Shown piece after piece: positions 5,634-64,000 of a stretch of DNA of 64,000 bases. Under the pieces are notes generated by a model, which saw only the letters and a program-made list of their open reading frames with translations, was not told the origin of the DNA and made no database searches. The position numbers and the translations under genes were made by a program. Source of the DNA: Aquisphaera giovannonii (GTDB lineage Bacteria > Planctomycetota > Planctomycetia > Isosphaerales > Isosphaeraceae). Within the stretch, counting starts at the first letter, position 1, and every line of letters begins with the position of its first letter. The stretch is from NCBI RefSeq assembly GCF_008087625.1, contig NZ_CP042997.1, forward strand, positions 3,534,001 to 3,598,000. The letters run 5' to 3'.

Positions 5634-8027
5634 TCATCGCGGGCTGGAGGCCGTGGCCGGCCCTTCCGTGACCCTCGATGAGAGCGGGGGGAGCTTCGTC
5701 CCGTCGTCGAGGGTGGCCTTGCCCGTCCCGAGGTTCACGACGACCATGGTCCCGTCCGCGAACCTCGTCTCCTGCACGGCGTGGTCCGGCGTGAGCCAGC
5801 GGTGCGAGAGCATCTCGCTGTAGCCGGTGGCGCGGGCGATGGGCGCGGTCTGCTTGTAGCTCTTCACGAACCGGTCCCGCTCCTTCTCCCAGAGCGCCCG
5901 GGTGAACATGAACATCGGCGGGGTGCCGTAGAGGGCGTTGAACAGGTCCCGGCGGTCCCAGACCGCGGGGAGCTTGTTGTTGTAATCGCCCCAGTACCAC
6001 TGAGCGACGACGCAGTCGTGGTAGACGAGCTCCCAGAGCGGCAGCCGGTAGAAGGGCCCGGTCTGGAACCTCTCGATCTGCGGCGGGGCGAGTTCGACGA
6101 TCCGGGCCATGTCGCGGCCGGCCTCGTCGATCCGGTACGGGCCCAGGGACAGCATCCCCTCGAAGTAATGGGCGTACGGGACCGCCGCGTCGTGCCCGGT
6201 CTCGCTCCCGGTCACGAGCCGGAACCTCTCGCTCATCAGGCGGAGCAGCTCCATCCTCCAGCGGCGGCTGTCGGACCGCGTCTGCGGATGGGCCTGCGCG
6301 TAGCACTCGCGCCATTCGGAGGCCGTGGTGGTGTCGATGAACCGGCACCGATAGGGATGCGTCCTCAGGTCCTCCGCCACCCGCTCCTCCGCATAGCCGA
6401 TCGCCGGCCGGTCGCAAGTGACGCCGCAGTCGTATCGGCTGCCGTCCTTCGCGTCCACGCCCCAGCCGTGGACCCAGCGCCCGTCCGCGTCGAGGACCAG
6501 GTCCGCCGGCCATGCCTTCGTCGTCCAGTCGGGGTGCCGATGGCCGATCGCCTGGAAGTTCACCGGATCCATCACGTCCTGGTAGATGTCGTACCGGCTG
6601 GTGAGGACGCCCAGGTCGTTGAGGCCCTTGATCTGGGCCGGGGAGACGCCGTTGGACCATAGAATCCGGTCGATCCCCGCGGACTGCATCTCGCGGACGA
6701 TGCCGACCGCGTCGCGATCCCAGCACCAGACGTTCACGGCGCCGATCAGGCGGTCCACGTTCGGGTTCTCTGCCTTCTTCTGCGCCAGCGTCTTCAGGAG
6801 GCCGATCTCGCGGGCATATTCGCGATATCGCTTGGCCATCGCGACATAGCCGCCGTCGTCCAGGAAGAGGTAGCGGATCTTCCGGGCCGGGCCGAATTCC
6901 CCCTTCTGCGGCCGCCACAGGGGGGCCAGAGAGAGCCGCCCGTCCAGCCTGGGGGTGCGGACGGCCGCGTCGTCCGGCGTCTCGACGATGGCCATCATGC
7001 CGGCCTTGCCGTCGGTGACGCCCCACCAGGCCATGCAGAGGCCGTGGCCGCCGGAGAGGTGGTACCACATCTCGGGGAGGGTCCGGTCCTCGACGGGGTA
7101 GCTCATGCCCTCGTTGACCGGCATGACCAGGAAGGCGCCGGCGGGGCTGGCGAACGGATGCGGATAGCCGACCTCCCCGGCCATCTCGCCGCGGCCGGAG
7201 AGCTCGACGGAGATCTCCGCGCGGCCGGGGACCAGGGCGACCTGCAATGCCACCAGCCCGGCCGACCGGGTGTCGACGAGGGTCGCCTCGATCCGGCCGC
7301 CCGCAGTCTTCGCCCGGAGCACCGGGAACGCCGCCCCGATGGGTCGCTGTTCCCAGGTCCGGCCGCCCCTCTTGTCGCGGACGAGAAGCGTGCCCCGGGC
7401 GGCGTCGAACCGGACCGCGAGGGAATCGTGCTGGAGCTCGAGGCTCTCCGGGACCTTCGCCGCGAAGCCCTCCGGCGCGGCGGAGAGGCGTTCGAGCGAG
7501 AGCTCGTCCGCATGGACGACGGTCGGCCCGCTGCCGATGATGCGGAAAGTCATCGTCCGAGCCCCGGGCGGGATGAGGAAGCGGGATTGGACCTCGCCCC
7601 ACGCCGCGGCGCGGATCGGCCGGCGGGCGTAGCTCCAGTCGATCGTCTCGCCGGCCGCGTCGCGGAGCACGACGGACATCTCCGCGGCCCCGTCGCCCTC
7701 GAGTCGGCCCCAGCCGCGGAACCGATAGAGCTCCCCCGGCCGGACGTCGATCCGCCTCCCGGCGGCCAGGCCCCAGTCCCCGCGGCCCGAGTGCTCGATC
7801 CGGGCGGAGCTGCGGCCCTCGTGCTTCCGGGACGGATCGATCGTCGCGCCGCCGCGGCCCGCATCTCGGGCCCAGAAGGGGTCCCAGCCCGAGAATCCCT
7901 CCTCGAAGCCGCCGTTGGTTAGGAGCCCGTCGCCCGCGGGGGCTGGCGTTTGCGCGGGGCAGGAGGACGTCCCCATCTCCGCGAGGAGGACACACGCGGC
8001 CATCAACAACCGGGACGGAGGGTTCAA
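5634..8027 (-). CDS. Secreted glycoside-hydrolase-like protein with N-terminal CBM-like domain
   Basis: About 797 residues from a TTG codon at 8027 that has a strong AAGGAG six bases upstream. An ATG at 8003 is the alternative. A signal peptide is followed by a CBM4/9-like jelly roll (GLLTNGGFEEGFSGWDP, then EGRSSARIEHSGRGDWGLA), a beta-sandwich region, and then a barrel-like part. That part has ILWSNGVSPAQIKGLND, YRCRFIDTTTASEW and RLVTGSETGHDAAVPYAHY, where the Asp and Glu could be catalytic. This layout recalls GH101-related or DUF5696 proteins, but I am not certain of the family. It probably acts on exported or environmental polysaccharide or glycoprotein. The stop is within 160 nt of the downstream HEAT-like gene, so the two may be co-transcribed. 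Confidence 0.62.
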   Translation of the reverse strand: MNPPSRLLMAACVLLAEMGTSSCPAQTPAPAGDGLLTNGGFEEGFSGWDPFWARDAGRGGATIDPSRKHEGRSSARIEHSGRGDWGLAAGRRIDVRPGELYRFRGWGRLEGDGAAEMSVVLRDAAGETIDWSYARRPIRAAAWGEVQSRFLIPPGARTMTFRIIGSGPTVVHADELSLERLSAAPEGFAAKVPESLELQHDSLAVRFDAARGTLLVRDKRGGRTWEQRPIGAAFPVLRAKTAGGRIEATLVDTRSAGLVALQVALVPGRAEISVELSGRGEMAGEVGYPHPFASPAGAFLVMPVNEGMSYPVEDRTLPEMWYHLSGGHGLCMAWWGVTDGKAGMMAIVETPDDAAVRTPRLDGRLSLAPLWRPQKGEFGPARKIRYLFLDDGGYVAMAKRYREYAREIGLLKTLAQKKAENPNVDRLIGAVNVWCWDRDAVGIVREMQSAGIDRILWSNGVSPAQIKGLNDLGVLTSRYDIYQDVMDPVNFQAIGHRHPDWTTKAWPADLVLDADGRWVHGWGVDAKDGSRYDCGVTCDRPAIGYAEERVAEDLRTHPYRCRFIDTTTASEWRECYAQAHPQTRSDSRRWRMELLRLMSERFRLVTGSETGHDAAVPYAHYFEGMLSLGPYRIDEAGRDMARIVELAPPQIERFQTGPFYRLPLWELVYHDCVVAQWYWGDYNNKLPAVWDRRDLFNALYGTPPMFMFTRALWEKERDRFVKSYKQTAPIARATGYSEMLSHRWLTPDHAVQETRFADGTMVVVNLGTGKATLDDGTKLPPLSSRVTEGPATASSPR

Positions 8028-8253
8028 CGCATTCTCCTTCGGCCGGGGGGGATGTCGCTTCCCGGCCGGGGTTGCGGCCGGGTGGCGGTTCTGCCATAAC
8101 GGCGGTGCCGGCGACGCGGCGGGCGGGTGTTGCGTGGAGCTCGGGGCCTGCCCCGGGCGGGCGATCGCAGCGATTGTCCCGCGCGGCGAGGGCGCGTTCG
8201 AGTAGGTCCCGGCGGGTGCCCCTTGGCCCGGCCCGTTCACGGTGGCGTGCCTC

Positions 8254-9633
8254 ATGCTCGGCAGACTGGTCCTCCCCGAGATCAAGGAGCTCATCGCCGA
8301 GGGCGACGAGCGGACGCTGCGCGAGGTCGTCAACGGCTGGTATCCGGCCGACGTCGCGACGGTGGTCGGTCAGCTCGATGCCCCGGATCGGCTCCGCGTC
8401 CTGAGAATCCTCGAGCCCGGCCTCGCGGCCGACACCTTCGCCTACCTGGACCGCGACACCCAGGTGGACGTCCTGGGCTCGGTCTCCCGATCCGAGGCGG
8501 CCTGGATCCTCAACACCATGCCGCCTGACGACCGCACCGCCTTCCTCGAGGACCTGCCCCCGGAGCAGTCCGAGCGCTGGATCGGCCTGCTGGACCCGGT
8601 CGAGCGGCAGGTCGCCCGGTCCCTCCTGAATTACGAGGAGGACAGCGTCGGCCGGCTGATGACGCCGGACTACATCGCCGTCAGCAAGGAATGGACGATC
8701 GCCCAGGTGCTCGACTTCGTCCGCGCCCACGGGCGGGACAGCGAGACGCTGAACGTCATCTACGTCGTGGACGCCGGCCACCACCTCATCGACGACCTCC
8801 GGATCCGGGAGATCCTGCTCGCCCCGGTACGCTCCCGCGTCGAGGACATCTGCGACCGCAAATACGTCAGCCTGAAGGCGACCGAGGAGCGGAAACGCGC
8901 GGTGGACGTCTTCCGGAAGTACGACCGCGTCGCGCTGCCGGTCACCGACGCCCACGGCCGCCTCGTCGGCATCGTCACGCTCGACGACGTGCTGGACGTG
9001 GCCGAGGAGGAGGCGACCCGCGAGATCCAGCAGTTCGGCGGCCTCGAGGCCCTCGACGAGCCGTACATGAGCACGCCGCTGCCCCAGATGGTCCGCAAGC
9101 GGGCGACCTGGCTGGTGATCCTCTTCGTGGGCGAGATGCTCACGGCCACGGCGATGGGCTTCTTCGAGGCCGAGATCTCCAAGGCCGTCGTCCTCGCCCT
9201 GTTCGTCCCCTTGATCATCTCCAGCGGCGGCAACTCCGGCTCGCAGGCGGCCACGCTGATCATCCGGGCCCTCGCCCTGGGCGAGGTCCGCCTGCGCGAC
9301 TGGTTCCTGGTCGTCCGCCGCGAGCTCCTCTCGGGCCTCCTCCTGGGCCTGATCCTGGGGACGATCGGCTTCCTCCGGATCGCCCTCTGGAGCGCCTTCT
9401 CGACCATCTACGGCGAGCACTGGCTGCTCGTCGGCGTCACCGTCGCCTGCTCGCTGCTGGGGATCGTGCTCTGGGGGACGATCACCGGGTCCATGCTGCC
9501 GTTCCTCCTCAAGCGCCTGGGCCTGGACCCGGCCACGTCCTCCGCGCCCTTCGTCGCGACGCTCGTGGACGTCACGGGGCTGGTCATCTACTTCAGCGTG
9601 GCCATGGTCATCCTCCGCGGGACGTTGCTCTGA
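8254..9633 (+). CDS. mgtE: Magnesium transporter MgtE
   Basis: About 459 residues with the standard MgtE order. First comes an N-domain (LREVVNGWYPADVATVVGQL). Next is a pair of CBS domains (VGRLMTPDYIAV.KEWTIAQVLDFV and VTDAHGRLVGIVTLDDVLD). Then there is a five-helix membrane domain carrying the GGNSGSQAATLIIRALALGE segment that lines the Mg channel. It takes up Mg2+ across the inner membrane, and the N and CBS domains sense cytoplasmic Mg. Possible starts are the ATG at 8254 or GTG codons at 8242 and 8248. None has a strong Shine-Dalgarno sequence, and the ATG was taken. It is divergent from the glycoside-hydrolase-like gene. Confidence 0.9.
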   Translation: MLGRLVLPEIKELIAEGDERTLREVVNGWYPADVATVVGQLDAPDRLRVLRILEPGLAADTFAYLDRDTQVDVLGSVSRSEAAWILNTMPPDDRTAFLEDLPPEQSERWIGLLDPVERQVARSLLNYEEDSVGRLMTPDYIAVSKEWTIAQVLDFVRAHGRDSETLNVIYVVDAGHHLIDDLRIREILLAPVRSRVEDICDRKYVSLKATEERKRAVDVFRKYDRVALPVTDAHGRLVGIVTLDDVLDVAEEEATREIQQFGGLEALDEPYMSTPLPQMVRKRATWLVILFVGEMLTATAMGFFEAEISKAVVLALFVPLIISSGGNSGSQAATLIIRALALGEVRLRDWFLVVRRELLSGLLLGLILGTIGFLRIALWSAFSTIYGEHWLLVGVTVACSLLGIVLWGTITGSMLPFLLKRLGLDPATSSAPFVATLVDVTGLVIYFSVAMVILRGTLL

Positions 9634-52846: not shown

Positions 52847-52874
52847 CGTCCCCCCTCGTCATCGAGGGGGGGCG
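52847..52874 (-). terminator. Hairpin whose loop contains the stop codon of the WD40 kinase
   Basis: CCCCCCTCG (52850-52858) and CGAGGGGGG (52863-52871) form a perfect 9-bp stem, extended to 12 positions by flanking pairs including one wobble. The 4-nt loop TCAT carries the complement of the TGA stop of the minus-strand kinase gene (52859-52861). As a transcript this places the stop codon at the tip of a terminator-like hairpin. Confidence 0.5.
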
Positions 52875-55800
52875 TCGCCGGACCAGATGCGGACCGAGCC
52901 GCGATGGTCGCAGGAGGCGAGCCTGCTCCCATCCGGCGAGAACGCCACCGCGTTGACGCGGGCGGTATGCCCATTCATCGCGTAGAAGAGCTGACTGCTC
53001 TCGAGGTCCCAGAGCCGCACCTTGCCGTCGTCGCAGCCGGTCGCCATGAGGCTCTGATCGGGGTGGGTGGCGACGCCTCGTACCCCCATCGGGTGGCCGA
53101 GGATGGTCTGATTCACGCCCCATTCCTGGATCGACCAGAACCTGGCGGTCCTGTCCGCGGTCCCCTCGACGAGGGTCTGGCCGTCCGGCGTGAAGGCCAG
53201 GCACCACGTCACGGGCCCGGTCCGGTCCCTCCCCTTGTAGGGGATGAAATGATCGGGATCCCAGAACTTCACCAGTCCGTTCGTGGACGACGAGGCGAGG
53301 ATGTTGCCGCTGGGCGTATAGGCGAGCGCATTGATTGCCGCGCCGACCGCCGGAAGCTCGACGGGCGGGGCCGAGGGCTTGCGGAGGTCCCACATCGAGA
53401 TCACCCCGCGTTTCCCGGCGGCGGCCAGGTGGGTGCCATGGGGGCTGAAGCTCACCGCCCAGAGCCGGTCCGCGGCCCCGAAGTCGTGGAGCAGCGTCCG
53501 CCTGGCGGGGCTTCCCGCCGGCTCCGGCCGGGTCGGGTCCAGGTCCCAGAGGAAGATCTTCCCATCCAGCCCCGCGCTGGCGAGGAGGGCCGGCGGGCCA
53601 TCGCCCGGCTTCTCGCCCCTGGGGGCCATGGAGAGCGCCGTGACCGTCTGGTCGTGCCCGGCGAGCCTGGCGATCTCCCGCCGGCCCTTCAGGTCCCAGA
53701 TCCTCACGAGGTGGTCGTCGCCGCCGGAGGCCAGCATCGCGCCGCCATGATCGAAGCACAGGCTCCAGGCCTCGCCGTCGTGCGATCCGAGCTCAGTCCC
53801 CTCCTCCCCGAGGTCCCGGTGATCCCAGACCCTGATGGAGTGGTCCCCGCAGCCCAGCAATAGGGACGAGCCGTCGGCATCGAATGCGATCGGCGCGCTC
53901 AGGCGCGAGTTGGCGCGATACGGGCGTCCCGGGACGCCGTCGGCGAGACCCCAGGTCCAGACCATCCGGTCATCGCCCGCGGCCAGGCGCCGCTCGTCCG
54001 GGGCCAGGGCGAACCAGCGGAAGGAGGAGCGGCCCTCCACCGGCAGGATGCACAGCTCCTCCGGGCGATCGACCAGGCGCGTCCAGAGCCGGCTCCCGCC
54101 GTCGCATCCGACGACCGCCTCGTCCCCCCGCCAGAAGCGGAGGAACCGGATCGGGCCGTATCGCCCCGGGCTGAAGGCCAGGAGCTTCCCCGAGGCCGCG
54201 TCCCATATGAGCAGGGCGCCCCCGTCCGTCCCCGCCGCCACCCGCCGACCGGTCTTCGAAACCGTCAAGGATTGGATCGCCCCGGCCGGCCTCTGCTCCA
54301 GGGGCCTCGCGGGCGACCCGTCGGCGCGGAAGAGTTGAACGGTGCCATCGCTCGATCCTTCGGCCAGGAGATCCTCGCCCCCGCTCCAGGCCAGTCGCGT
54401 GACGCCGCCTCGCGCCCCGGAGGGATCGGCCCTCCAGCCGCCGTCGGAGCGGACCCAGGCCCAGGCCCTCCAGCCGTCGCCGCCCGCCATCTTGCCGCAG
54501 AGGTGCAGCCTCGTGCCGCCGTGCGAGAGGCGGAAATCCGACACCTCCATGGCGCCGATGCGGAAGTCGCCGACGGCCCGCCCCTGCTTCGCGTCCCAGA
54601 ACCGGACCTGCAGGCCCTCCGCGGCCTCCCCCAGGCTGGCGACCGTCCCCTCGGTCGCGTTGCTGGGGGCGTCGTAGGCGAGCCGCAGGACCTTGCCGGC
54701 GTGCCTGTCCCGGAACCTGGCGTGCGTCCCGGCCCTGGTGTCCCAGCGGATGATGTGGCCCGACGCGTCGCCGGAGACCAGTTCGCCGGGGCGGCCGGAC
54801 GCGGCGACGCAGATAACCGCGCCGGAGTGCCCCTTCTGGGGGGGCCGGGCGCGGCGGATCAGCGACCGGATGTATTCCCACTCGAAGCCCTTCGCGAGGT
54901 CCAGGCGGTCGTCGGCCACCCAGCCGTCGAGGAGTTGCACGGCCAGCTCGGGCTGCCCTTCATCGAGCGCCTGCTTCACCCGGCCCAGCAGCATGTCGTA
55001 GGACCGCTTCGCGACGCCGCGGGTCTCCCCGTCCGCCCTGCTCCTCTGGTAGGACACGACGCTCTTCTCGCTCTCCGCGAGCGAGAGCCTCTTCTCCAGC
55101 TCGCGGTTGCTCTCGGTTACCTTCAGGTAATGGAAGACCGCCCCGCCCAGCAGGAGGAGCGAGAGCAGGAGGCTGAACGCCAGCAGGCCCGCCGCCAGCG
55201 GCTGCCGCCGGCGCCACTGGAGGAAGCGGCGAAGGCGGGTGGTGCGCTTCGCCCGGATGGGCTGGTTCTCGCCGAATCTCCGCAAGTCGTCGGCGAGGTC
55301 GGCCGCGGACGCGTACCGCCGCGACGGCTCCCGGTCGAGGCACTTCAGGCAGATCGTCTCGAGGTCGGCCGGGACGCCGTGCCGGAGCCGCGACGGCGGG
55401 ACGAGCTCCGCCTCCACGACCTGGCAGAGCGTCTCCATCGGCGTGAACCCGCGGAACGGTGCCGCGCCGGTGACCATCTCATAGAGGAGCGCGCCCAGGG
55501 CGTAGACGTCGGTCGCCGGGCCGATCGCCCCCTCGCCGCCGGAGACCTGCTCGGGCGCCATGTAGGACGGCGTCCCGAGGAGCACGCCGTTGAGCGAGAC
55601 GCCCTGCTCGCCCATCAGGAATTTGGCGAGGCCGAAGTCGGTGATCTTGGGGACGCCGTCGGGCGTCATCAGGATGTTGCTGGGATTCAGGTCGCGGTGC
55701 ACGATGCCGCGCTGGTGGGCGACGTGGATGGCCCGGGCCAGGATCTCGGTCAGCCTGGCCGACCATCGGAACGCCTGCGGCATGCCGCGGATCATCCGCG

Positions 55801-56434
55801 TCAGGTTGCCGCCGACCACGTACTCCATCGTCAGATACGGCAGCCCGTCGTGGTCGCCGATCTCGAAGATCTGGACCACGTTCGGATGGATGAGCTGCGC
55901 CGCGGCCTCGGCCTCGTTCCGGAGCCTGGCTCGCTCGCGGAGCCCGGCATTCTCCCCGGCGAGGATCATCTTGAGGGCCACGACCCGGCTGAGGTTGCTC
56001 TGGCGCGCCTTGTAGACGACCCCCATGCCCCCCCGGCCGATCTCCTCGATGATGTGGTAGTTGGCGATCCGCGGGAACCGGTCGTCGGCCCCGCGCTCGG
56101 CCTGGGCGGCGGGGGCGGGGGCGGGGCCGGACCCGTCGCTCAGCGTCGGCATCTCGGATCCCAGGACCTCCCGGAGCGACAGCAGCGACTCCATCCGGCC
56201 CAGCAGGTCGGGGAACCTCTCCTGCCACTCGTCGAGCGTCGGCTTCTGGCCCAGGTCGTGCCGGGTCGTCACCTCCGTGTGGATCAGCTCGAGGACCGCC
56301 TCCTCGTTCTCGCCGAGGGTGGGATAGGCGGAGAGGATTGCCTCGACCCGGATCGCCTCCCCGTCGCGGAGGCGGCTCCTCAACTCGGCGCACGCCTCCC
56401 TGACGGTCCGCAGATATTCCCTCTGGATTGGCAA
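52859..56434 (-). CDS. Ser/Thr protein kinase with C-terminal WD40 propeller
   Basis: About 1191 residues from a TTG at 56434 (the ribosome site is weak, and no other start keeps the N-terminal module). Residues 40-90 hold the shared N-terminal module (VLELIHTEVTTRHDLGQKPT, then QERFPDLLGRM). Kinase domain: glycine loop IGRGGMGVVYKA (132-143), Lys155, HRDLNPSN (246-253), ITDFGLAKF and MAPEQ. Position 250 is Asn where the catalytic-loop Lys is usual. A membrane helix lies near 413-436. The extracytoplasmic C-terminal part, from about 510 to the end, has many WD40-like repeats with the strand end W-D or W-S (for example SHDGEAWSLCFDHGGAMLASGG, cut here). The stop lies in a hairpin loop. The signal sensed is unknown. 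Confidence 0.85.
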   Translation of the reverse strand: MPIQREYLRTVREACAELRSRLRDGEAIRVEAILSAYPTLGENEEAVLELIHTEVTTRHDLGQKPTLDEWQERFPDLLGRMESLLSLREVLGSEMPTLSDGSGPAPAPAAQAERGADDRFPRIANYHIIEEIGRGGMGVVYKARQSNLSRVVALKMILAGENAGLRERARLRNEAEAAAQLIHPNVVQIFEIGDHDGLPYLTMEYVVGGNLTRMIRGMPQAFRWSARLTEILARAIHVAHQRGIVHRDLNPSNILMTPDGVPKITDFGLAKFLMGEQGVSLNGVLLGTPSYMAPEQVSGGEGAIGPATDVYALGALLYEMVTGAAPFRGFTPMETLCQVVEAELVPPSRLRHGVPADLETICLKCLDREPSRRYASAADLADDLRRFGENQPIRAKRTTRLRRFLQWRRRQPLAAGLLAFSLLLSLLLLGGAVFHYLKVTESNRELEKRLSLAESEKSVVSYQRSRADGETRGVAKRSYDMLLGRVKQALDEGQPELAVQLLDGWVADDRLDLAKGFEWEYIRSLIRRARPPQKGHSGAVICVAASGRPGELVSGDASGHIIRWDTRAGTHARFRDRHAGKVLRLAYDAPSNATEGTVASLGEAAEGLQVRFWDAKQGRAVGDFRIGAMEVSDFRLSHGGTRLHLCGKMAGGDGWRAWAWVRSDGGWRADPSGARGGVTRLAWSGGEDLLAEGSSDGTVQLFRADGSPARPLEQRPAGAIQSLTVSKTGRRVAAGTDGGALLIWDAASGKLLAFSPGRYGPIRFLRFWRGDEAVVGCDGGSRLWTRLVDRPEELCILPVEGRSSFRWFALAPDERRLAAGDDRMVWTWGLADGVPGRPYRANSRLSAPIAFDADGSSLLLGCGDHSIRVWDHRDLGEEGTELGSHDGEAWSLCFDHGGAMLASGGDDHLVRIWDLKGRREIARLAGHDQTVTALSMAPRGEKPGDGPPALLASAGLDGKIFLWDLDPTRPEPAGSPARRTLLHDFGAADRLWAVSFSPHGTHLAAAGKRGVISMWDLRKPSAPPVELPAVGAAINALAYTPSGNILASSSTNGLVKFWDPDHFIPYKGRDRTGPVTWCLAFTPDGQTLVEGTADRTARFWSIQEWGVNQTILGHPMGVRGVATHPDQSLMATGCDDGKVRLWDLESSQLFYAMNGHTARVNAVAFSPDGSRLASCDHRGSVRIWSGDAPPR

Positions 56435-56776
56435 GGTTCTTGTCCGTTCAGCGAGGGGCGACCGTTCCGTGCGTCTCGGGCCGGTGACGTCTTGGCGGGC
56501 GACCAACAGTCTAGCGGCCCCGCCTGCGTGCGGGCAAGCACCCCGGTATCGTAATTGTGGGGGCATGACCGGGGCGGGCGAGGCGGGCCCCAACCCGACC
56601 GTCGAGGCGGCCTGCGCCGGGCCGCGAATTCGCTCTGGCCAATCCCTCGCCTCATCGCGTAGAACGCATCGGAGACGCCGGGATGGCGAGGGGCGTGTGG
56701 GGCCGCGGCGCCCCGGCTCCGGGCGGGGGCCGCCAGGCGGCGGCCCGCGACGTGCGCCCGGCACGGAGCATCCTCG
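56435..56776. other. Divergent intergenic region, no feature seen
   Basis: This 342-nt stretch separates the divergent WD40-kinase and MFS genes and must hold both promoters. I see no convincing -35/-10 pair, repeat or RNA structure. Confidence 0.5.
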
Positions 56777-58171
56777 ATGCAAGACCTCGCGGGATCGGAG
56801 CGGAGGCGCGGATGGCTGCGGTCCCTGGGGCTGGACCGCCCCGAGCTGCGGGCATGGGCCCTCTACGACTGGGCCAACTCGGCGATGGTCTGCACGATCA
56901 TCACCGCGGTCTTCCCGACGTACTACTCCTCCGTCGCCTGCGCGGGCCTCGAGCCGGCCGTCGCCTCCCGGATGCTCGCCGTGGCCACGACGATCGGGAT
57001 GGTCTTCATCGCCGCCCTCTCGCCGGTCCTGGGCGCCTTCGCGGACTACACGGCGCAGAAGAAGCGACTGCTCGGCCTCTTCCTGACGCTCGGACTCGCC
57101 GCGGTCGCGGGCATGTTCTTCATCCGGACCGGCGACTGGGTCCTCGCCTCGGCGCTGTTCATCCTGGCCAACATCGGGGCCAACGGGAGCTTCGTCTTCT
57201 ACGACGCCCTCCTGCCGCACATCGCCAGTGACGAGGAGATCGACCGCGTCTCGACGGCGGGGTATGCGCTCGGCTACCTGGGCGGCGGCGTGCTCCTCGC
57301 GCTCAACCTGGCCTGGATCGTGCGTCCGGGCCTCTTCGGACTGCCGACCGACCCGGGGAGCACCCTGGGGGCGCGGCTGGCGTTCCTGTCCGTGGCGGCC
57401 TGGTGGGGACTCTTCTCGATCCCCCTCTTCCGCCGCGTGCCGGAGCCGAGGGCGGTGCACCCCGCGGAGGAGTTGCATGGGGAGAGTCCCGTCCGCGCCA
57501 CCCTGGAGCGGCTGTCGAATACGGCCCGGGACCTGAAGCGGTACCGCAACGGTTTCCTCATGCTGCTCGCGTTCCTGATCTACAACGACGGGATCGGCAC
57601 GATCATGCGGATGGCCGTCGTCTACGGCTCCGAGATCGGCATCAAGCAGGAGGACCTCATCCGGTCGATCCTGATCGTCCAGTTCGTCGGGATCCCGTTC
57701 TCCTTCCTGTTCGGGGCGATCGCGTCGAGGATCGGCGTCAAGGTCTCGATCCTCTGGGGCCTCGCGGTCTACACCGTCATCTGCGTCATCGGCTATTTCA
57801 TGACGACGGCGGGCCACTTCCTCCTGCTCTCGATCCTGGTCGGGACCGTCCAGGGGGGTACCCAGGCGCTCAGCCGATCGATGTTCGCGAGCCTCATCCC
57901 GAGGGACCGGTCGGGCGAGTACTTCGGCTTCTTCTCCGTCGCGGAGAAGTTCGCCGGCATCCTCGGCCCGGCCCTGTTCGCGGCGATCAACTGGGGGACC
58001 GGCTCCAGCCGGGGGGCCATCCTGGGGGTGATCGGCTTCTTCGTGGTCGGCGGCATCCTGCTCTGGATGGTCGACGTGGAGGCCGGCCAGCGGGAGGCGC
58101 GGCTCGACGAGCCCGCCGAGGCCCTCGCGCTCACGCCGCTCGCCTCGGCCGCGACCAGTGAATCGCCGTGA
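56777..58171 (+). CDS. MFS transporter of the UMF1/Atg22-like family
   Basis: A 464-residue protein with about 12 membrane segments. The opening RAWALYDWANSAMVCTIITAVFPTYY is the UMF1 signature. Other blocks are LSPVLGAFADYTAQKKR, ASALFILANIGANGSFVFYDALLP and GGTQALSRSMFASLIPRDRSGEYFG. Family members export small metabolites or are vacuolar effluxers in yeast; the bacterial substrates are unknown. The ATG has GGAG upstream. The 3' end overlaps the convergent phosphatidylcholine-synthase gene by 41 nt. Confidence 0.85.
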   Translation: MQDLAGSERRRGWLRSLGLDRPELRAWALYDWANSAMVCTIITAVFPTYYSSVACAGLEPAVASRMLAVATTIGMVFIAALSPVLGAFADYTAQKKRLLGLFLTLGLAAVAGMFFIRTGDWVLASALFILANIGANGSFVFYDALLPHIASDEEIDRVSTAGYALGYLGGGVLLALNLAWIVRPGLFGLPTDPGSTLGARLAFLSVAAWWGLFSIPLFRRVPEPRAVHPAEELHGESPVRATLERLSNTARDLKRYRNGFLMLLAFLIYNDGIGTIMRMAVVYGSEIGIKQEDLIRSILIVQFVGIPFSFLFGAIASRIGVKVSILWGLAVYTVICVIGYFMTTAGHFLLLSILVGTVQGGTQALSRSMFASLIPRDRSGEYFGFFSVAEKFAGILGPALFAAINWGTGSSRGAILGVIGFFVVGGILLWMVDVEAGQREARLDEPAEALALTPLASAATSESP

Positions 58172-58946
58172 CGACCCAGGACGCCGCGATGTAGTAGAGC
58201 GGATACAGGAACGAGACCAGGGCCAGGCGGACCACCCGCGGGTCGTCTCGCGGGGGGACGTCGGAGGGCAGGCTCCACAGCAGCCACCCCAGCGGCACCA
58301 CCCAGATAGCGCCGAGCACCGTCGAGACCACGTTCAGCATCCCCGGCTGGGACGGGTAGAGGTACTTGCTCGGCACGAACGTGAACAGGGCCAGGGCCAG
58401 CACGATCGCGAGCGCGGCCCAGGGGGGAACCGGCAGCACGTACAGGTACAGGGCCACGACGTTCCAGAGCGAGGGGAACCCCAGGAAGTATCCGTCGGGC
58501 GTCTTGATGTCCACCTGGCAGAAGCCGTAGAGGCTGGCGAGCATGGCGACCACGAGCCAGGCCTCGGTCCCGGGGGGTACGAGCCCCGCCCGGCCGATCA
58601 GGAGGATGGGCAGGAAGGTGTAATTCAGGAAGTCCACGATGTCGTCGAGGCGGCGCCCGTCGAAGCTCGGGACGGCCTCCTTGATGCGGACCATCCGGGC
58701 GAAGGTGCCGTCGGTCGCGTCCACGATCGTGGCGATCGCCATCAGCAGGAAGCACCAGCGATAGGCCGCCGGCCCCCCCTCGAGCAGGAGCGACGCCATG
58801 ATCGCCGCCGCGATGAGCCCGCTCGCGGTGTAGGCGTGGACGCACCAGCCCAGGAACCGCCTCAGGGACGAGGGCGCCGCCTTCGCGGCGAGCCCCTGCG
58901 TCGTCGGCCCGGCGGCGTCCCCGCGTTCCCCCCCCATGTCCGGCAT
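58131..58946 (-). CDS. pcs: Phosphatidylcholine synthase (Pcs) homologue
   Basis: A 271-residue integral membrane protein of the CDP-alcohol phosphotransferase superfamily. It carries the exact spacing reported for Pcs, DG(x2)AR(x12)G(x3)D(x3)D: Asp79-Gly80, Ala83-Arg84, Gly97, Asp101, Asp105. The local context is IVDATDGTFARMVRIKEAV. Helices after it fit the eight-helix topology. The N-terminus HAYTASGLIAAAIMASLL also matches Pcs. Pcs joins choline and CDP-diacylglycerol into phosphatidylcholine with release of CMP (EC 2.7.8.24). The ATG at 58946 has GAGGGG upstream. The gene is 10 nt downstream of the ACT-family permease and at the end of a set with a phosphoethanolamine methyltransferase homologue. 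The substrate is inferred from the motif, not tested. Confidence 0.82.
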   Translation of the reverse strand: MPDMGGERGDAAGPTTQGLAAKAAPSSLRRFLGWCVHAYTASGLIAAAIMASLLLEGGPAAYRWCFLLMAIATIVDATDGTFARMVRIKEAVPSFDGRRLDDIVDFLNYTFLPILLIGRAGLVPPGTEAWLVVAMLASLYGFCQVDIKTPDGYFLGFPSLWNVVALYLYVLPVPPWAALAIVLALALFTFVPSKYLYPSQPGMLNVVSTVLGAIWVVPLGWLLWSLPSDVPPRDDPRVVRLALVSFLYPLYYIAASWVVTAIHWSRPRRAA

Positions 58947-58956
58947 CGACGACCCC

Positions 58957-60513
58957 TCAATCCGCCCCGACGGGCCCCAGCGCGGGCCCGGGCAACTCCG
59001 GCTCCGCGGCGGCCGAATGCTCGGACAGCACCGCGAAGCCCCGCCGCCGCGCGACCATGTAATAGACCAGCCCAATCGCGACGAGCGCCCCGGTGGCCAG
59101 CGCGGCCGCGTACTTCCCCGCCGGATCGTCGCCGTAGATCGACGCGCGCGGCCAGCTCATGTTCACGACCAGGAACGCCCCCCAGGCGACCGCCAGGACG
59201 TTCACGACGAGGCCCAAACGCCCCAGCCGGAATGGCGCCGGGCCCTCGGAGTCCGGCCATCCCCGGAGCCTGGCCGCCAGCAGCGGATAGCTCACGAGGA
59301 GGTAGGCCAGGTTGGCCCAGACGATCGCCACCGAGCAGAGCGTCTCGATGATCCGCGGCAGGTTCACGTTCGCGACCAGGATCGCGGCCGCGGCCGCCCC
59401 CGTCGCGACGGCCGGCACGACCGGCGTGCCGGTCCCCCGCGGGACCAGGGCGAGCGACCGGGCGAAGGGCAGGGCGTCGTCCCTCGCCATCGCGAAGATC
59501 AGGCGGACCGTGCCGGCATGCACCGCCAGGGCGCAGACGGCGATCGCGAAGACGACCGCCCCCAGGAAGAGCCGCCCGAGCGACGGGCCGAGCGCCTCCT
59601 TGATTAGCCAAGGCAGCCCCCCGTCGATGGCGGAGAGGCGGGAGGATGTCGGGTCGTCGGCCGCCATCAGGCCGGCCGCGATGAGCAGGCCTCCGGCGAC
59701 CCCCGCCGCCAGCAACGCCCGCAGGATGGCCCGGGGCGCCCTCCTCCTCGGGGCGGTCGTCTCCTCCGCGAGGGTGCCGGCGGTGTCGAAGCCGTAGAGG
59801 ACGTACGACGGCATGATCGCCGCCGCCAGCAGCGGCCCGATCATCCCCGATGTCCATCCTGCGGCCGGATCGCCGCCGTGGATCTGCAGCAGGATCCCCG
59901 GGCCCCGCTTCGCCCGGAGCAGCAGGAGGACGATGAGCAGCGTCACGCCGGCCAGCTCGCTCATCACGCCGAGGTTGTTGATCCACGCCATGAGCCGCAC
60001 CCCGGCCACGTTCACCGCCGTCGTCAGGGCGATCAGGATGCAGCCCAGGAGCACGGCATTCCGCGCCCGATCGGCGGGGTCCGCCGCATCCCCGACGACC
60101 TGGAAGGCCGAGGCGAGTTGCGGCAAGGTCCCCTGGAGCGCCAGCGCCACGGCCGCGAGGGAGATGACCGAGCTCGCCAGATAGACCCAGCCGGCCATCC
60201 AGCCCAGCCCCGCCGGGCCGATCCGCCGCGACCACTGGTAGACGCCCCCCGAGAGCGGGTAATGCGCCGCGAGCTCCGCGAAGCCGGCCGCCACGGAGAG
60301 CTGCCCGAGCAGCACGACCGGCCAGGTCCAGAAGAACGCCGGGCCCGCCGCGGCGAAGCCCAGCGCGAACATCTGGAAGACGCCCGTCAGGATCGAGATG
60401 TAGGAGAACCCGGCCGCGAACGACGAGAAGCTCCCCAGGGACCGATGCAGCTCCTGCCGGTAGCCGAAGCCCGCCAGGTCGCGGAGATCCTCCGCGTGAT
60501 CGTTCGTCGCCAC
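58957..60513 (-). CDS. ACT-type APC-superfamily permease (amino acid/choline)
   Basis: About 518 residues and 12 or more membrane segments. The N-terminal block LAGFGYRQELHRSLGSFSSF, followed by AAGFSYISILTGVF, is the signature of the ACT family, which includes the yeast choline permease Hnm1 as well as GABA and amino-acid permeases. Other landmarks are PLSGGVYQWSRRIGPAG and SYVLYGFDTAGTLAEET. The substrate cannot be read from motif alone; choline or ethanolamine would fit the neighbours. The GTG at 60513 has GAGG at good spacing; a GTG at 60528 is the other choice. It lies between the methyltransferase (48 to 63 nt upstream) and pcs (10 nt downstream). Confidence 0.8.
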   Translation of the reverse strand: MATNDHAEDLRDLAGFGYRQELHRSLGSFSSFAAGFSYISILTGVFQMFALGFAAAGPAFFWTWPVVLLGQLSVAAGFAELAAHYPLSGGVYQWSRRIGPAGLGWMAGWVYLASSVISLAAVALALQGTLPQLASAFQVVGDAADPADRARNAVLLGCILIALTTAVNVAGVRLMAWINNLGVMSELAGVTLLIVLLLLRAKRGPGILLQIHGGDPAAGWTSGMIGPLLAAAIMPSYVLYGFDTAGTLAEETTAPRRRAPRAILRALLAAGVAGGLLIAAGLMAADDPTSSRLSAIDGGLPWLIKEALGPSLGRLFLGAVVFAIAVCALAVHAGTVRLIFAMARDDALPFARSLALVPRGTGTPVVPAVATGAAAAAILVANVNLPRIIETLCSVAIVWANLAYLLVSYPLLAARLRGWPDSEGPAPFRLGRLGLVVNVLAVAWGAFLVVNMSWPRASIYGDDPAGKYAAALATGALVAIGLVYYMVARRRGFAVLSEHSAAAEPELPGPALGPVGAD

Positions 60514-60576
60514 CGCGTCGCCTCGCACCCCCCGCGCGGACGCGGGACCGACGGTCCGATAACCGGCCTACTCAAC

Positions 60577-61386
60577 TCAGCCCTTGCGGGTGGCGAGGTA
60601 GATGCCCCACTTCATGTCGCCCGCCGCGCAGAACCGCTCCTTCATCGCCCAGCGCTCGACCAGGTAATTCAGGTCCTCCTCGGAGAAGCTCGAGAGGAAC
60701 TCGGAGCGGTGCTCGACGAGCCGCTTCTTCTCGCGGCCGAGGATGTCCACGAAGGTCGCCGTGGCGTCGTCCACGACCACGTCGACGAACCCGGCGTCGC
60801 GGAGGAGCTGGCCGTACTGACCGGGCTCGATGACGCTGTAGCCCGTCTTGACGATGTACTCCTCGAACTCCGGCGAGGCCGGCGTCCTGCCCCGGGCGTA
60901 GTCGGTGATCACCATCTTGCCGCCGTCGGCCATCAGGCCGTACAGGCAGGCGAAGAGCGTCTTCTTGTCCGGGACGTGCATCAGGGCGTCCCGGCTCCAG
61001 ATGACGTCGAACTTCTCCGGGAAGGACGTCTCGAGCACGTCCCCCAGGATGAAGTTGACGTCGCCCTGCATCCCGAGCTCTTCCACCCGATCGACGGCGA
61101 TCGCCACCATCTCCTCGGCCAGGTCCACGCCCGTCACCTTCGCCCCGTACGCCTTCGCGAGGTGGAACGCCGCGCCGCCGATGCCGCTGCCCACGTCCAG
61201 CACGCGGAAGCCGGGCCGGAGCACCCCTTCCAGCCGGCGACACAGGTTCTCGGTCGTCTCGTGACCGCCCGTGCTGATATAGTCCCGGCCGAAGATCTTC
61301 TCGTAGCGGAGGATCGAGGTGCGGCTGTACTGGCCCTTGTTGTCGAACTTCGGCTTCGAAGCCGGCGCCGATGATGACTCTGGCAT
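60577..61386 (-). CDS. Phosphoethanolamine N-methyltransferase-like (PMT-type) protein
   Basis: A 269-residue SAM-dependent methyltransferase. Motif I is VLDVGSGIGGAAF (62-74), followed by VTGVDLAEEM, FDVIWSRDALMHV and GKMVITDYARG. The N-terminus NKGQYSRTSILRYEKIFGR, then YISTGG, closely resembles protozoan and plant PMTs. The residues aligned to the catalytic dyad of the Plasmodium enzyme (Tyr19, His132) are Tyr20 and His137, and Tyr163 and Tyr183 match further phosphobase-contact tyrosines. The aligned Arg179 of the Plasmodium enzyme is Thr181 here, so substrate specificity is not certain. PMT converts phosphoethanolamine to phosphocholine in three SAM-dependent steps. First gene of the set with permease and pcs. 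Confidence 0.75.
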   Translation of the reverse strand: MPESSSAPASKPKFDNKGQYSRTSILRYEKIFGRDYISTGGHETTENLCRRLEGVLRPGFRVLDVGSGIGGAAFHLAKAYGAKVTGVDLAEEMVAIAVDRVEELGMQGDVNFILGDVLETSFPEKFDVIWSRDALMHVPDKKTLFACLYGLMADGGKMVITDYARGRTPASPEFEEYIVKTGYSVIEPGQYGQLLRDAGFVDVVVDDATATFVDILGREKKRLVEHRSEFLSSFSEEDLNYLVERWAMKERFCAAGDMKWGIYLATRKG

Positions 61387-61391
61387 TTTGG

Positions 61392-61465
61392 ATCCATCGA
61401 GTTAAGTGGCGGCGCGGCACTCGCCATCGCTCCCGGTATCGGACTCTCGGCCGGCCTCGATGGAT
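61392..61465 (-). promoter_or_regulatory. Leader with 10-bp inverted repeat abutting the PMT start
   Basis: ATCCATCGAG (61392-61401) and CTCGATGGAT (61456-61465) are perfect reverse complements, 54 nt apart. In the minus-strand transcript the second arm ends 6 nt before the ATG at 61386 and so would mask the ribosome site. The enclosed segment can form at least two inner stems (CCGG/CCGG and GGCG/CGCC). This is a junction-like arrangement that could regulate translation. No known riboswitch class was recognised. The rest of the gap up to 61684 shows nothing else. Confidence 0.42.
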
Positions 61466-61684
61466 TTCTGCGATGAGAACCGCGTCGCGCGGGTTGGAAT
61501 TCAACATTCTGGTGGAACCACGCGACGCTTGTAAAGAGCCCTCCACCGAGACCGCGGCGTGCGGCGAGCCCTCCGGACGGGCCCGCCGCGACGGTCCGGG
61601 GCGACCGGGCGCAAGGAGTCGCAGATCAACGACGGCCGGCCCTCCCCGACGAAAGAAAGGGCGCGGGGGTAAGGCGTCGGGGGT

Positions 61685-64000
61685 TCAGCGGGCGGGCCTC
61701 CGCGCGGCGGGCGCGGGCGTGTGGCGGAACGCCGCGGAAGAAGGCCGATACCGGATGCGGACCCCGGCCGCCCCCGCGATCGGGGGCATGTAGGTGGTCC
61801 GCCCGCGTCGGACCCCGGCCGAAAGCGTGAGGATGCTCCGCTTCGGCGCCGCGCCCAGGAGGGTGACGGACTGGACATCCCCGAAGGCCGAGCGGAAGAC
61901 CTCGATGAGCCCGCCCTTCGCCAGGTTCATCGTCACCGGCACGCCGGCTGCGTCGGCATAGGCCAGCCTCGGGCCCACGCCGAACGTGGTGACGTAGGGC
62001 CCGCCCGGCACGCCGTTGCCGGCGCCGGAGAGGAGCGTCCCCGCCGTGTCGGTGATGCCTCGCTTCAGCAGCGCGTCGGTCATGCCGTCCACGACGATCC
62101 GCACGAACACCCCGAGCGGTAGCGGCGCGGTGGGGACGAGCGTCACCGAGCACGACGCGGCATCGTAGCTGGCGGATGCGAGGCGGATGGCGCCGTCGTC
62201 CGACGTCCCGAAGGTGCCGTCCGCGCCGGCCGTGATCGCGTAATATCCGTAATTGCCGAGGTCCGACGCGCGGGCCGGGTCGAGCGCCTTGCTGAAGGAG
62301 TAGACCAGGGCGGAGACGCCCCCGGGGCCGACGACGAGCTGCTGCCCCGTGATCTGCGGCGGAGGCCCGACAGGCCCCCCACCTCCGCCGCCGCCACCTC
62401 CGCCGCCGCCCGCGAGGATCGTCAGGGTGGCGGTCGCCTGCGAGCCGACCTGCGCCCCGGCCGAGGCGTCGCCGAGGGCCAGGCCCACCGTCACGGCGGT
62501 CGCGGTCGAGGCCGGGTGGAGCAGGGGGACGGTGATGGTGGCCGTCGTCTGATTGCCGAGGAACGTCAGGGTGCCGGAGACCGGCGTGTAATCGACGCCC
62601 GCGACGCCGGTGCCCCCGGCCGTCGCGTAGCTCACCTGGACCGTCCCGCCCCGATTCCCGCCACCCCTCACGACGGTGATCGTCGCCGACGTCGCCGACG
62701 CGGAGCCCGTGTAATTGCCGCTGCTGAACTGGAGGACCGCGGGCATGTTGTTGTCGATGGTGACCGTCGAGGTGGCGATCGTCCCCAGCGTCGCCCCGCC
62801 AGTCGGCGAGCCGAGGGCGACCTGGAAGGCCACCGAACTCGCCGCCTGCGAGGGGTTGGCGAGGATCGTGACCACGAAGGTCTTGTCCATCTCGCCGGGC
62901 TGGAACGTCAGTGTCCCGGACGCGGCCGCGTAATCCTTGCCCGCGATCGCCGTCCCGTTGGCCGTCGCGTAATTCACGGAGACCAGGGCGTTGGCGTTGC
63001 CGGACCGCACGACGTGGACGATCAGCGAGCCGGAGGTCGCCTCGACCGTCATGGTCGCCGTCGCGAACTGGACGCTCACCGGGACGGCCGAGGTGGAGTT
63101 GGAGAACTCCGACGTGTCCCCCGTGCTCAGGTTCGTGGCCGTCGCCGTGACCCAGTCCGTCGGGGCCAGGCTGTTCAGCGGGGTGTACCCGAACGCGGCA
63201 TGGCCCGACGCGTCGGTCGTGACCGTCGTCGATCCGATGTACGTCTGGCCCTGGCCGTAGCCCGAAGGGTCGGGCACGAGGCTGGTGAAGAACTGGATCA
63301 GGAACGTGGTCCCCGGGACGCTGGAGAGCGTGCCCTGGACGTTGCTGGTCGTGCCCCCGCCGACCGCCGTCGTCAGCACCGGGGCATTCTGGAGGTTGTT
63401 CGGCCCCGGCGTCCCCGCCGGCCGGGCGGGCGTCACGCCGCTCGCCGGATCGCCCGGCGCCACCAGGTCGATCCCGATCCGATTGTTCGCCCAGATGGCG
63501 TTGGAGAGGATGCTGTCGCCGGTCCCCGAATCGACCTCGACCCCCGCCTGCCGGTGGAAGGCGATCCTGTTCCCGAGGCCCGTCGCCGTGCCGCCGACGG
63601 TGTTCCCGCCGGCATTCCCGGTGAACAGCACGCCCGTCACCTCGTTGCCCAGCCGCGAATTACCCGTGACGTCCGTGCCGATGAAGTTGCCCGCGATCAG
63701 GTTGCCCGTCGAGAACGGGCCGTCGAGGTGAATGCCGACGTGGTTGGCCGAGATCAGGTTGAGCGCCGCCGACGAGCCGCCGCCGATGCTGTTCCGCGGG
63801 GCGCCGCTCAGGAACACCCCTTCGGCCTTGTTCCCGAGATCCAGCTTGCCGGACTTGTCCGTGCCGATGAAGTTGCCGGCGAGCAGGTTCTGCGTGGAGG
63901 CGAGGCCGGAGATCGAGACGCCGATATTGTTCCCGGAGATGACCTGGGAGCCCTGGCTCGTGCCGCTGATCGTGTTGTTCGACGAGTCGACGATCAGGAT
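61685..64000 (-). CDS. Large surface protein with beta-helix and two Calx-beta domains (N-terminus outside window)
   Basis: 771 codons are visible, open to the window edge, so the true start is beyond 64000. The first 230 visible residues are parallel beta-helix repeats of the type LIAGNFIGTDxxGxxxLGN. Two Calx-beta domains follow at about 308-417 and 420-530 (NYATANGTAIAGKDYAAASG, TLTFQPGEMDKTF, and the second with ATAGGTGVAGVDYTPVSG). A poly-Gly linker near 531-542 is encoded by a 15-bp tandem repeat. The C-terminal 225 residues include an Ig-like stretch (SFSKALDPARASDLGNYGYY) and end in GRTTYMPPIAGAAGVRI. It is probably exported and surface-bound; no enzymatic part is visible. It lies upstream of the PMT set in the same direction, but with a 298-nt gap. 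Confidence 0.78.
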   Translation of the reverse strand: MLIVDSSNNTISGTSQGSQVISGNNIGVSISGLASTQNLLAGNFIGTDKSGKLDLGNKAEGVFLSGAPRNSIGGGSSAALNLISANHVGIHLDGPFSTGNLIAGNFIGTDVTGNSRLGNEVTGVLFTGNAGGNTVGGTATGLGNRIAFHRQAGVEVDSGTGDSILSNAIWANNRIGIDLVAPGDPASGVTPARPAGTPGPNNLQNAPVLTTAVGGGTTSNVQGTLSSVPGTTFLIQFFTSLVPDPSGYGQGQTYIGSTTVTTDASGHAAFGYTPLNSLAPTDWVTATATNLSTGDTSEFSNSTSAVPVSVQFATATMTVEATSGSLIVHVVRSGNANALVSVNYATANGTAIAGKDYAAASGTLTFQPGEMDKTFVVTILANPSQAASSVAFQVALGSPTGGATLGTIATSTVTIDNNMPAVLQFSSGNYTGSASATSATITVVRGGGNRGGTVQVSYATAGGTGVAGVDYTPVSGTLTFLGNQTTATITVPLLHPASTATAVTVGLALGDASAGAQVGSQATATLTILAGGGGGGGGGGGGPVGPPPQITGQQLVVGPGGVSALVYSFSKALDPARASDLGNYGYYAITAGADGTFGTSDDGAIRLASASYDAASCSVTLVPTAPLPLGVFVRIVVDGMTDALLKRGITDTAGTLLSGAGNGVPGGPYVTTFGVGPRLAYADAAGVPVTMNLAKGGLIEVFRSAFGDVQSVTLLGAAPKRSILTLSAGVRRGRTTYMPPIAGAAGVRIRYRPSSAAFRHTPAPAARRPAR
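62378..62407. repeat. 15-bp tandem repeat encoding a poly-glycine linker
   Basis: CCACCTCCGCCGCCG occurs twice in a row, followed by more GCC units. On the minus strand it encodes the glycine run between the second Calx-beta domain and the C-terminal domain. Copy number could vary by slippage. Confidence 0.7.

Follow-up and report, generated by a model that had tools for sequence, protein, structure and literature searches.

We analysed a 64,000-nucleotide stretch of Aquisphaera giovannonii DNA (assembly GCF_008087625.1, contig NZ_CP042997.1, positions 3,534,001 to 3,598,000), hereafter the window, with a focus on three adjacent minus-strand genes. They encode a methyltransferase of the phosphoethanolamine methyltransferase (PMT) type, a permease and a homologue of phosphatidylcholine synthase (Pcs), and are arranged as follows.

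61535-61506, minus strand: weak promoter-like site upstream of the PMT-like gene, a consensus match only, with 9/12 matches (shuffle mean 0.2)
61386..60577, minus strand: PMT-like methyltransferase gene, 269 residues
60528..58957, minus strand: permease gene, GTG start, 523 residues
58946..58131, minus strand: Pcs homologue gene, ATG start, 271 residues

The first gap measures 48 nt, which grows to 63 nt should the permease start at the next GTG (60513), and the second measures 10 nt. The coordinates, strand, gaps and motifs agree with a preliminary description of this DNA, which had read the set as a choline/phosphatidylcholine operon. A consensus scan of 58000-61800 revealed a single promoter-like match on the minus strand, 5' of the PMT-like gene, and no terminator-like site on that strand; a lone match in front of the first gene fits a single transcript and proves nothing. 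The three genes probably form one operon, from which they would be co-transcribed.

The arrangement recurs across the family. Among 45 Isosphaeraceae genomes, searched at E ≤1e-30 for PMT, ≤1e-10 for Pcs and ≤1e-60 for the permease, PMT was found in 25 and Pcs in 31 (in G008 as a fragment only). Sixteen of the 25 PMT genomes, the window's genome included, carry all three genes on a single strand in the order PMT-permease-Pcs; the recurrence of both order and strand in 16/45 genomes indicates more than a chance arrangement. Two further genomes (G004 and G010) have a PMT-Pcs pair without the permease, so that PMT adjoins Pcs or lies one gene away in 18/25. The remaining genomes have the two genes on one contig at a distance of >1 Mb (G011, G037 and G038) or on different contigs (G017, G018, G043 and G044). 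In two close genomes where PMT lies far from Pcs, an IS605-type OrfB gene with a Cas12f1-like domain (L085 8609-9805) and a reverse-transcriptase gene (L086 9243-10592) sit just 3' of a kinase-PMT set and may mark how the gene moved.

No PMT was counted in the 352 other genomes of a class-wide Planctomycetia sample (397 genomes, including the 45 Isosphaeraceae), and a phylum-wide sample yielded PMT in 2/392 genomes, both Isosphaeraceae; in both samples at most six best candidates were scored per genome. A candidate from outside the family (G441, E 1.5e-24) was rejected, as the protein has no QY/YE motif. No match to PMT at E 1e-15 was present in 72,556 plasmid records, and none of 69 pattern matches in viral contigs proved to be a relative.

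Against Pfam, only general methyltransferase domains scored over cut-off for the 269-residue protein, and the best NCBIfam model, sarcosine/dimethylglycine methyltransferase, reached 69 bits versus a cut-off of 550. Comparison with solved structures was far more specific: every one of the 11 top-scoring distinct PDB sequences is a phosphoethanolamine methyltransferase (132-240 bits), from the C-terminal domain of Arabidopsis PMT2 (3e-70) to the Plasmodium falciparum enzyme PfPMT (2e-37), whereas the best molecule of another kind, MitM, scored 69 bits with an E-value of 4e-18. The catalytic residues Tyr20 and His137 align with Tyr19 and His132 of PfPMT, the numbering of which was verified on 3uj6. 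Both are present in all 25 family sequences. The assignment to the PMT family and the catalytic pair named in the preliminary description are borne out. Altogether, nine residues (Q19, Y20, Y28, D133, H137, Y163, Y177, Y183 and K249) are invariant in the 25 family sequences and in the five aligned PDB PMTs. Among them, D133 corresponds to Asp128 of PfPMT, which lies within the SRD motif and which we take to belong to the catalytic set. The phosphobase-site residues Tyr27, 160, 175, 181 and Lys247 are represented by Y28, Y163, Y177, Y183 and K249, respectively; a passage of PMC6705855 describes the roles of the binding tyrosines and Lys247 in known PMTs.

Only three columns are fixed differently between the bacterial set and five eukaryotic PMTs, namely Gly to Ala72, Arg179 to Thr181 and Gly243 to Arg245. 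Arg179, which the same passage reports to act in the phosphobase site, was taken as one mark of family membership and is replaced by Thr in 25/25 family sequences. The change at Gly243 is equally uniform (25/25) and brings a new arginine four residues before Lys247. Both Arg179 and Gly243 were seen in all seven solved PMT proteins whose alignments were viewed, including those of P. vivax and P. falciparum. A weak AlphaFold2 model, built from three sequences (pLDDT 65; four of five models <38), places Arg245 on a helix. The phosphate grip has probably moved from the Arg179 to the Arg245 position, or perhaps the substrate has changed instead, for example to free ethanolamine. Because the replacement of Arg179 is complete, we call the enzyme PMT-like rather than a proven PMT; we predict from sequence that it trimethylates phosphoethanolamine to phosphocholine.

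Compared to the PMTs of plants, nematodes and Plasmodium (PMT/PEAMT, EC 2.1.1.103), the bacterial protein is homologous over the whole domain, retains the catalytic Tyr-His pair, the binding tyrosines, Asp and Lys, and shares with Plasmodium PMT a single-domain build. It differs in its bacterial host, the operon with Pcs, the two substitutions at Arg179 and Gly243, and its place in the tree, where the 25 Isosphaeraceae sequences form a single clade on a long branch (support 100/99) apart from five eukaryotic PMTs. Paralogue outgroups tried as a root were dropped because their terminal branches were too long to be of use (2.8-8.9 changes per column); since the tree is unrooted, we draw no conclusion about which way a transfer between plants and planctomycetes might have gone.

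The last gene of the set encodes a protein that we read from its sequence as a divergent Pcs homologue, predicted to convert CDP-diacylglycerol and choline to phosphatidylcholine (PC). Five NCBIfam Pcs models rank at the top, with 147 to 89 bits, whereas all other listed families score ≤21 and the PssA model 18 bits. The motif DG-x2-AR-x12-G-x3-D-x3-D is exact, as first described, and is found in 31 of the 32 Pcs open reading frames read from the loci, a total that counts two genes twice and includes one partial frame; PgsA and L105 have x8 spacing instead. Moreover, the homologue has 26 residues in common with the annotated Pcs of Sinorhizobium meliloti, Legionella and Pseudomonas, and some of these residues are not found in Escherichia coli PgsA; identity to known bacterial Pcs is 29 to 38%. 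In a tree of 35 rows, of which 29 come from the family after removal of the two duplicates and the partial sequence, the three annotated Pcs nest among those of Isosphaeraceae and two PgsA stand apart, with long branches that leave the inner placement unsure. The Pcs assignment holds at the family level. The PF01066 search of the window's genome returned three proteins: PgsA (over cut-off), one nearest to inositol-phosphate-lipid synthases (below cut-offs) and Pcs; it showed no Kennedy-type CPT of this family. Eight plasmid records match Pcs, five of them unannotated under the match and three annotated, two as phosphatidylcholine synthase and one as phosphatidylcholine/phosphatidylserine synthase. 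The one frame of the 32 without the exact motif comes from G016 (L092, ~7060-9520), a draft in which no PMT was found: Trp replaces the first Gly of its Pcs motif (DWTLAR), and one TGA interrupts its permease frame, which may reflect pathway decay or draft errors.

The permease belongs to the APC superfamily (PF13520, 129 bits, over cut-off) and is predicted on sequence grounds to import choline or ethanolamine, the direction of transport being presumed. The ACT-family (TC 2.A.3.4) signature assigned to it at the outset stands at family level only, with nearly full-length matches to TIGR00907 (162 bits) and TIGR03428 (492 bits, urea-carboxylase-system permeases), and falls short of the curated cut-offs of 598 and 740 bits, respectively. 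It also differs from these permeases in its linkage: present in 26/45 family genomes, the gene adjoins Pcs in 26/26. It stays with Pcs in four genomes where PMT was not found (G016, an 89% complete draft, G039, G040 and G041); the permease accompanies Pcs rather than PMT, as expected of a choline importer. Five Pcs genomes have no permease, of which G004, G010 and G011 have PMT, and G008 (Pcs fragment) and G015 (Pcs at a contig end) do not. ChoXWV and LicB are of another transporter family than this permease. As is predicted for the permease, they take up choline for a choline-using pathway; both systems are named in PMC10434233. A second draft genome, from G016's genus, likewise has one in-frame TGA in its permease frame (G018:C673:3-1352). 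In another planctomycete family (G088, L206 6625-8998), a sodium:solute symporter gene (PF00474) precedes the Pcs homologue on the same strand, taking the permease's place.

Directly 5' of PMT and on the same strand, a gene resembling choline/ethanolamine kinases (PF01633) was found in five genomes of four genera (G001, G010, G025, G037 and G038), and in G001 and G025 it opens an uninterrupted series of kinase, PMT, permease and Pcs. Three kinases that were scanned scored 71, 77 and 85.5 bits for PF01633 versus a cut-off of 29, and the G010 protein (P0005) finds its best PDB match in the choline/ethanolamine kinase family (3e-25); among NCBIfam models, GntI ranked first, under its own cut-off. 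The PMT-adjacent kinase presumably phosphorylates ethanolamine. Kinases over the PF01633 cut-off occur in 18/45 genomes, 17 of which have PMT. The window's genome has no PMT-adjacent kinase; a divergent homologue lies at G000:C1:9967957, with 39% identity to the G010 protein.

A Pfam scan covered 30 proteins, three of which are the kinases, so that 27 neighbours, part of all those near PMT or near separate kinase genes, were assessed; 4/27 matched no family. Among these 27, no phosphatase family was found and no cytidylyltransferase was noted. Two proteins came closest to a phosphatase: L087:8520-10340 is a sulfatase with a weaker phosphodiesterase/pyrophosphatase match, on the opposite strand, and L069:10324-11475 is an alpha/beta hydrolase. 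The scanned neighbours of the separate kinase genes have no common partner except DUF1501, seen once by a separate kinase and once by a kinase-PMT set.

The genes also go together across genomes. All 25 PMT genomes contain Pcs, versus 6/20 of those without PMT (Fisher p 2e-7), and by genus the figures are 12/12 versus 2/9 (p 3e-4); the kinase is over cut-off in 17/25 PMT genomes versus 1/20 others (p 1e-5), all three tests ignoring kinship. On a RimO tree of 40/45 genomes, from which five without a whole RimO were left out, PMT changes at least 8 times.

We propose, with a probability of about 0.6, that the operon feeds choline to Pcs from two sides, by uptake and by PMT-like synthesis. When choline is available, the permease would import it and supply the Pcs step directly. 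A choline/ethanolamine-type kinase may convert ethanolamine and ATP to phosphoethanolamine, and where no outside choline is at hand the PMT-like enzyme would carry out three S-adenosylmethionine-dependent methylations to yield phosphocholine. A phosphatase encoded outside the operon might then release choline, which Pcs would join with CDP-diacylglycerol to give PC. Homologies, catalytic residues, gene order and co-occurrence in this scheme come from computation, and from these we infer the substrates and the phosphatase step. The pathway suggested in the preliminary description gains strength from the kinase-like gene right before PMT in five genomes and from the lack of phosphatidylserine decarboxylase (Psd, PF02666) in 15/25 PMT genomes. 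Its further suggestion of a self-contained route is not established: the window's genome lacks an adjacent kinase, and the 27 neighbours include no phosphatase family. A wider proposal, to which we give even odds, sees here a dedicated choline branch of Isosphaeraceae, in which a PMT-family enzyme with a rebuilt anion pocket either recognizes phosphoethanolamine in a new way or turns ethanolamine directly into choline; combined with Pcs, it would add a fourth way for bacteria to make PC, one that relies neither on exogenous choline nor on phosphatidylethanolamine (PE).

Several observations weigh against the two-sided supply of choline. The Pcs homologue lies under all five curated Pcs cut-offs (at best 147 versus 300 bits, for NF045887 PhCholSynPs), the permease is likewise below its own, and Arg179 is missing from every PMT-like sequence. 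PMT is apart from Pcs in 7/25 genomes, the kinase does not exceed its cut-off in 8/25, and the scanned neighbours offer no phosphatase. Corrected for the tree, the association of PMT with Pcs rests on five independent pairs, of which 2.7 on average change the same way and never the opposite (p ~0.25), and that with the kinase on 3.1/5 pairs changing the same way (p ~0.25); neither is significant, because there are only five independent pairs. Co-occurrence alone is therefore no proof, and the conserved adjacency weighs more. Finally, the growth media behind the lipid reports may have contained choline.

The change at Arg179 and the lack of a phosphatase family among the 27 scanned neighbours might instead mean that free ethanolamine, or its mono- or dimethyl form, is methylated straight to choline, with no phosphatase needed before Pcs. 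Such a shift would account for Thr181 in 25/25 sequences where the 7/7 solved PMTs viewed have Arg, but the enzyme retains the equivalents of Lys247 and of all four phosphobase-site tyrosines, and the arginine at the Gly243 position could replace the lost charge. It would also leave the PMT-adjacent kinase without obvious purpose in five genomes; this kinase, which would perform the step expected just before PMT, is our main reason to favour a phosphobase as substrate, and we regard direct methylation of the free base as unlikely. Separation of PMT from Pcs in seven genomes would be in line with another use of choline, such as supply of the osmolyte glycine betaine or decoration with phosphocholine, the adjacency to Pcs then reflecting only a common precursor; a passage of PMC6356786 ties a red alga PEAMT to betaine synthesis. 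Given that every PMT genome has Pcs and 18/25 keep the two genes adjoining or one gene apart, we consider this quite improbable.

PC could also arise mainly by methylation of PE, with the operon as a minor salvage system. This pathway, catalyzed by the phospholipid N-methyltransferase PmtA, likewise gives bacteria choline-independent PC; PmtA methylates the lipid PE, whereas the PMT-like route would act on a phosphobase. Psd is encoded in 13/45 Isosphaeraceae genomes, including that of the window, and monomethyl- and dimethyl-PE appear among the abbreviations of a figure legend that covers four planctomycete cultures together (PMC7828035). However, the 15 PMT genomes in which Psd was not found include several that are 99-100% complete, which makes PE methylation an unlikely source of PC there; the searches covered Psd and not PmtA itself. 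In addition, three species, A. giovannonii, S. acidiphila and S. rosea, are recorded in Table 8 of PMC4334474 as containing PC but neither mono- nor dimethyl-PE, and passages of PMC12493201, which reports a Singulisphaera deletion mutant, place PC among the major lipids of S. acidiphila. We thus judge PE methylation an improbable main source, and retain uptake together with PMT-like synthesis as the preferred explanation.

According to a 2023 study (PMC10434233), the well-studied ways in which bacteria make PC are PmtA, Pcs and acylation, and the Pcs pathway needs exogenous choline, unlike the present case, where a probable choline-making gene adjoins Pcs. If our reading is true, PMT feeding Pcs would free bacterial PC synthesis from both outside choline and PE, and would account for how Isosphaeraceae without Psd might contain this lipid. 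It would also provide a bacterial set of homologues for an enzyme family that is investigated as a malaria and nematode drug target, with the phosphate pocket as a natural experiment. The full-text matches listed, which leave out most subscription papers, name neither a PMT-Pcs operon nor a PMT in planctomycetes. The parts are of known kinds, and this is not a new kind of system; the combination, its occurrence in a bacterium and the changed phosphate pocket were not met in the literature searched. Altogether, the locus suggests choline self-supply for membranes by a route seldom credited to bacteria.

Downstream of the operon, a major facilitator superfamily (MFS) transporter gene (56777..58171, plus strand), which is ATG22/UMF1-like (PF11700, 211 bits), converges with pcs and overlaps its 3' end by 41 nt. 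Of the 31 Pcs genomes, 17 have a homologue of it within the stretch read around Pcs, which may exceed a chance neighbourhood. Further on, a long open reading frame (52859-57817, minus strand) has a translation that looks, by eye, like a serine/threonine kinase with WD40-like repeats after it; the initial portion of this frame is antisense to the MFS gene, which puts the actual start later.

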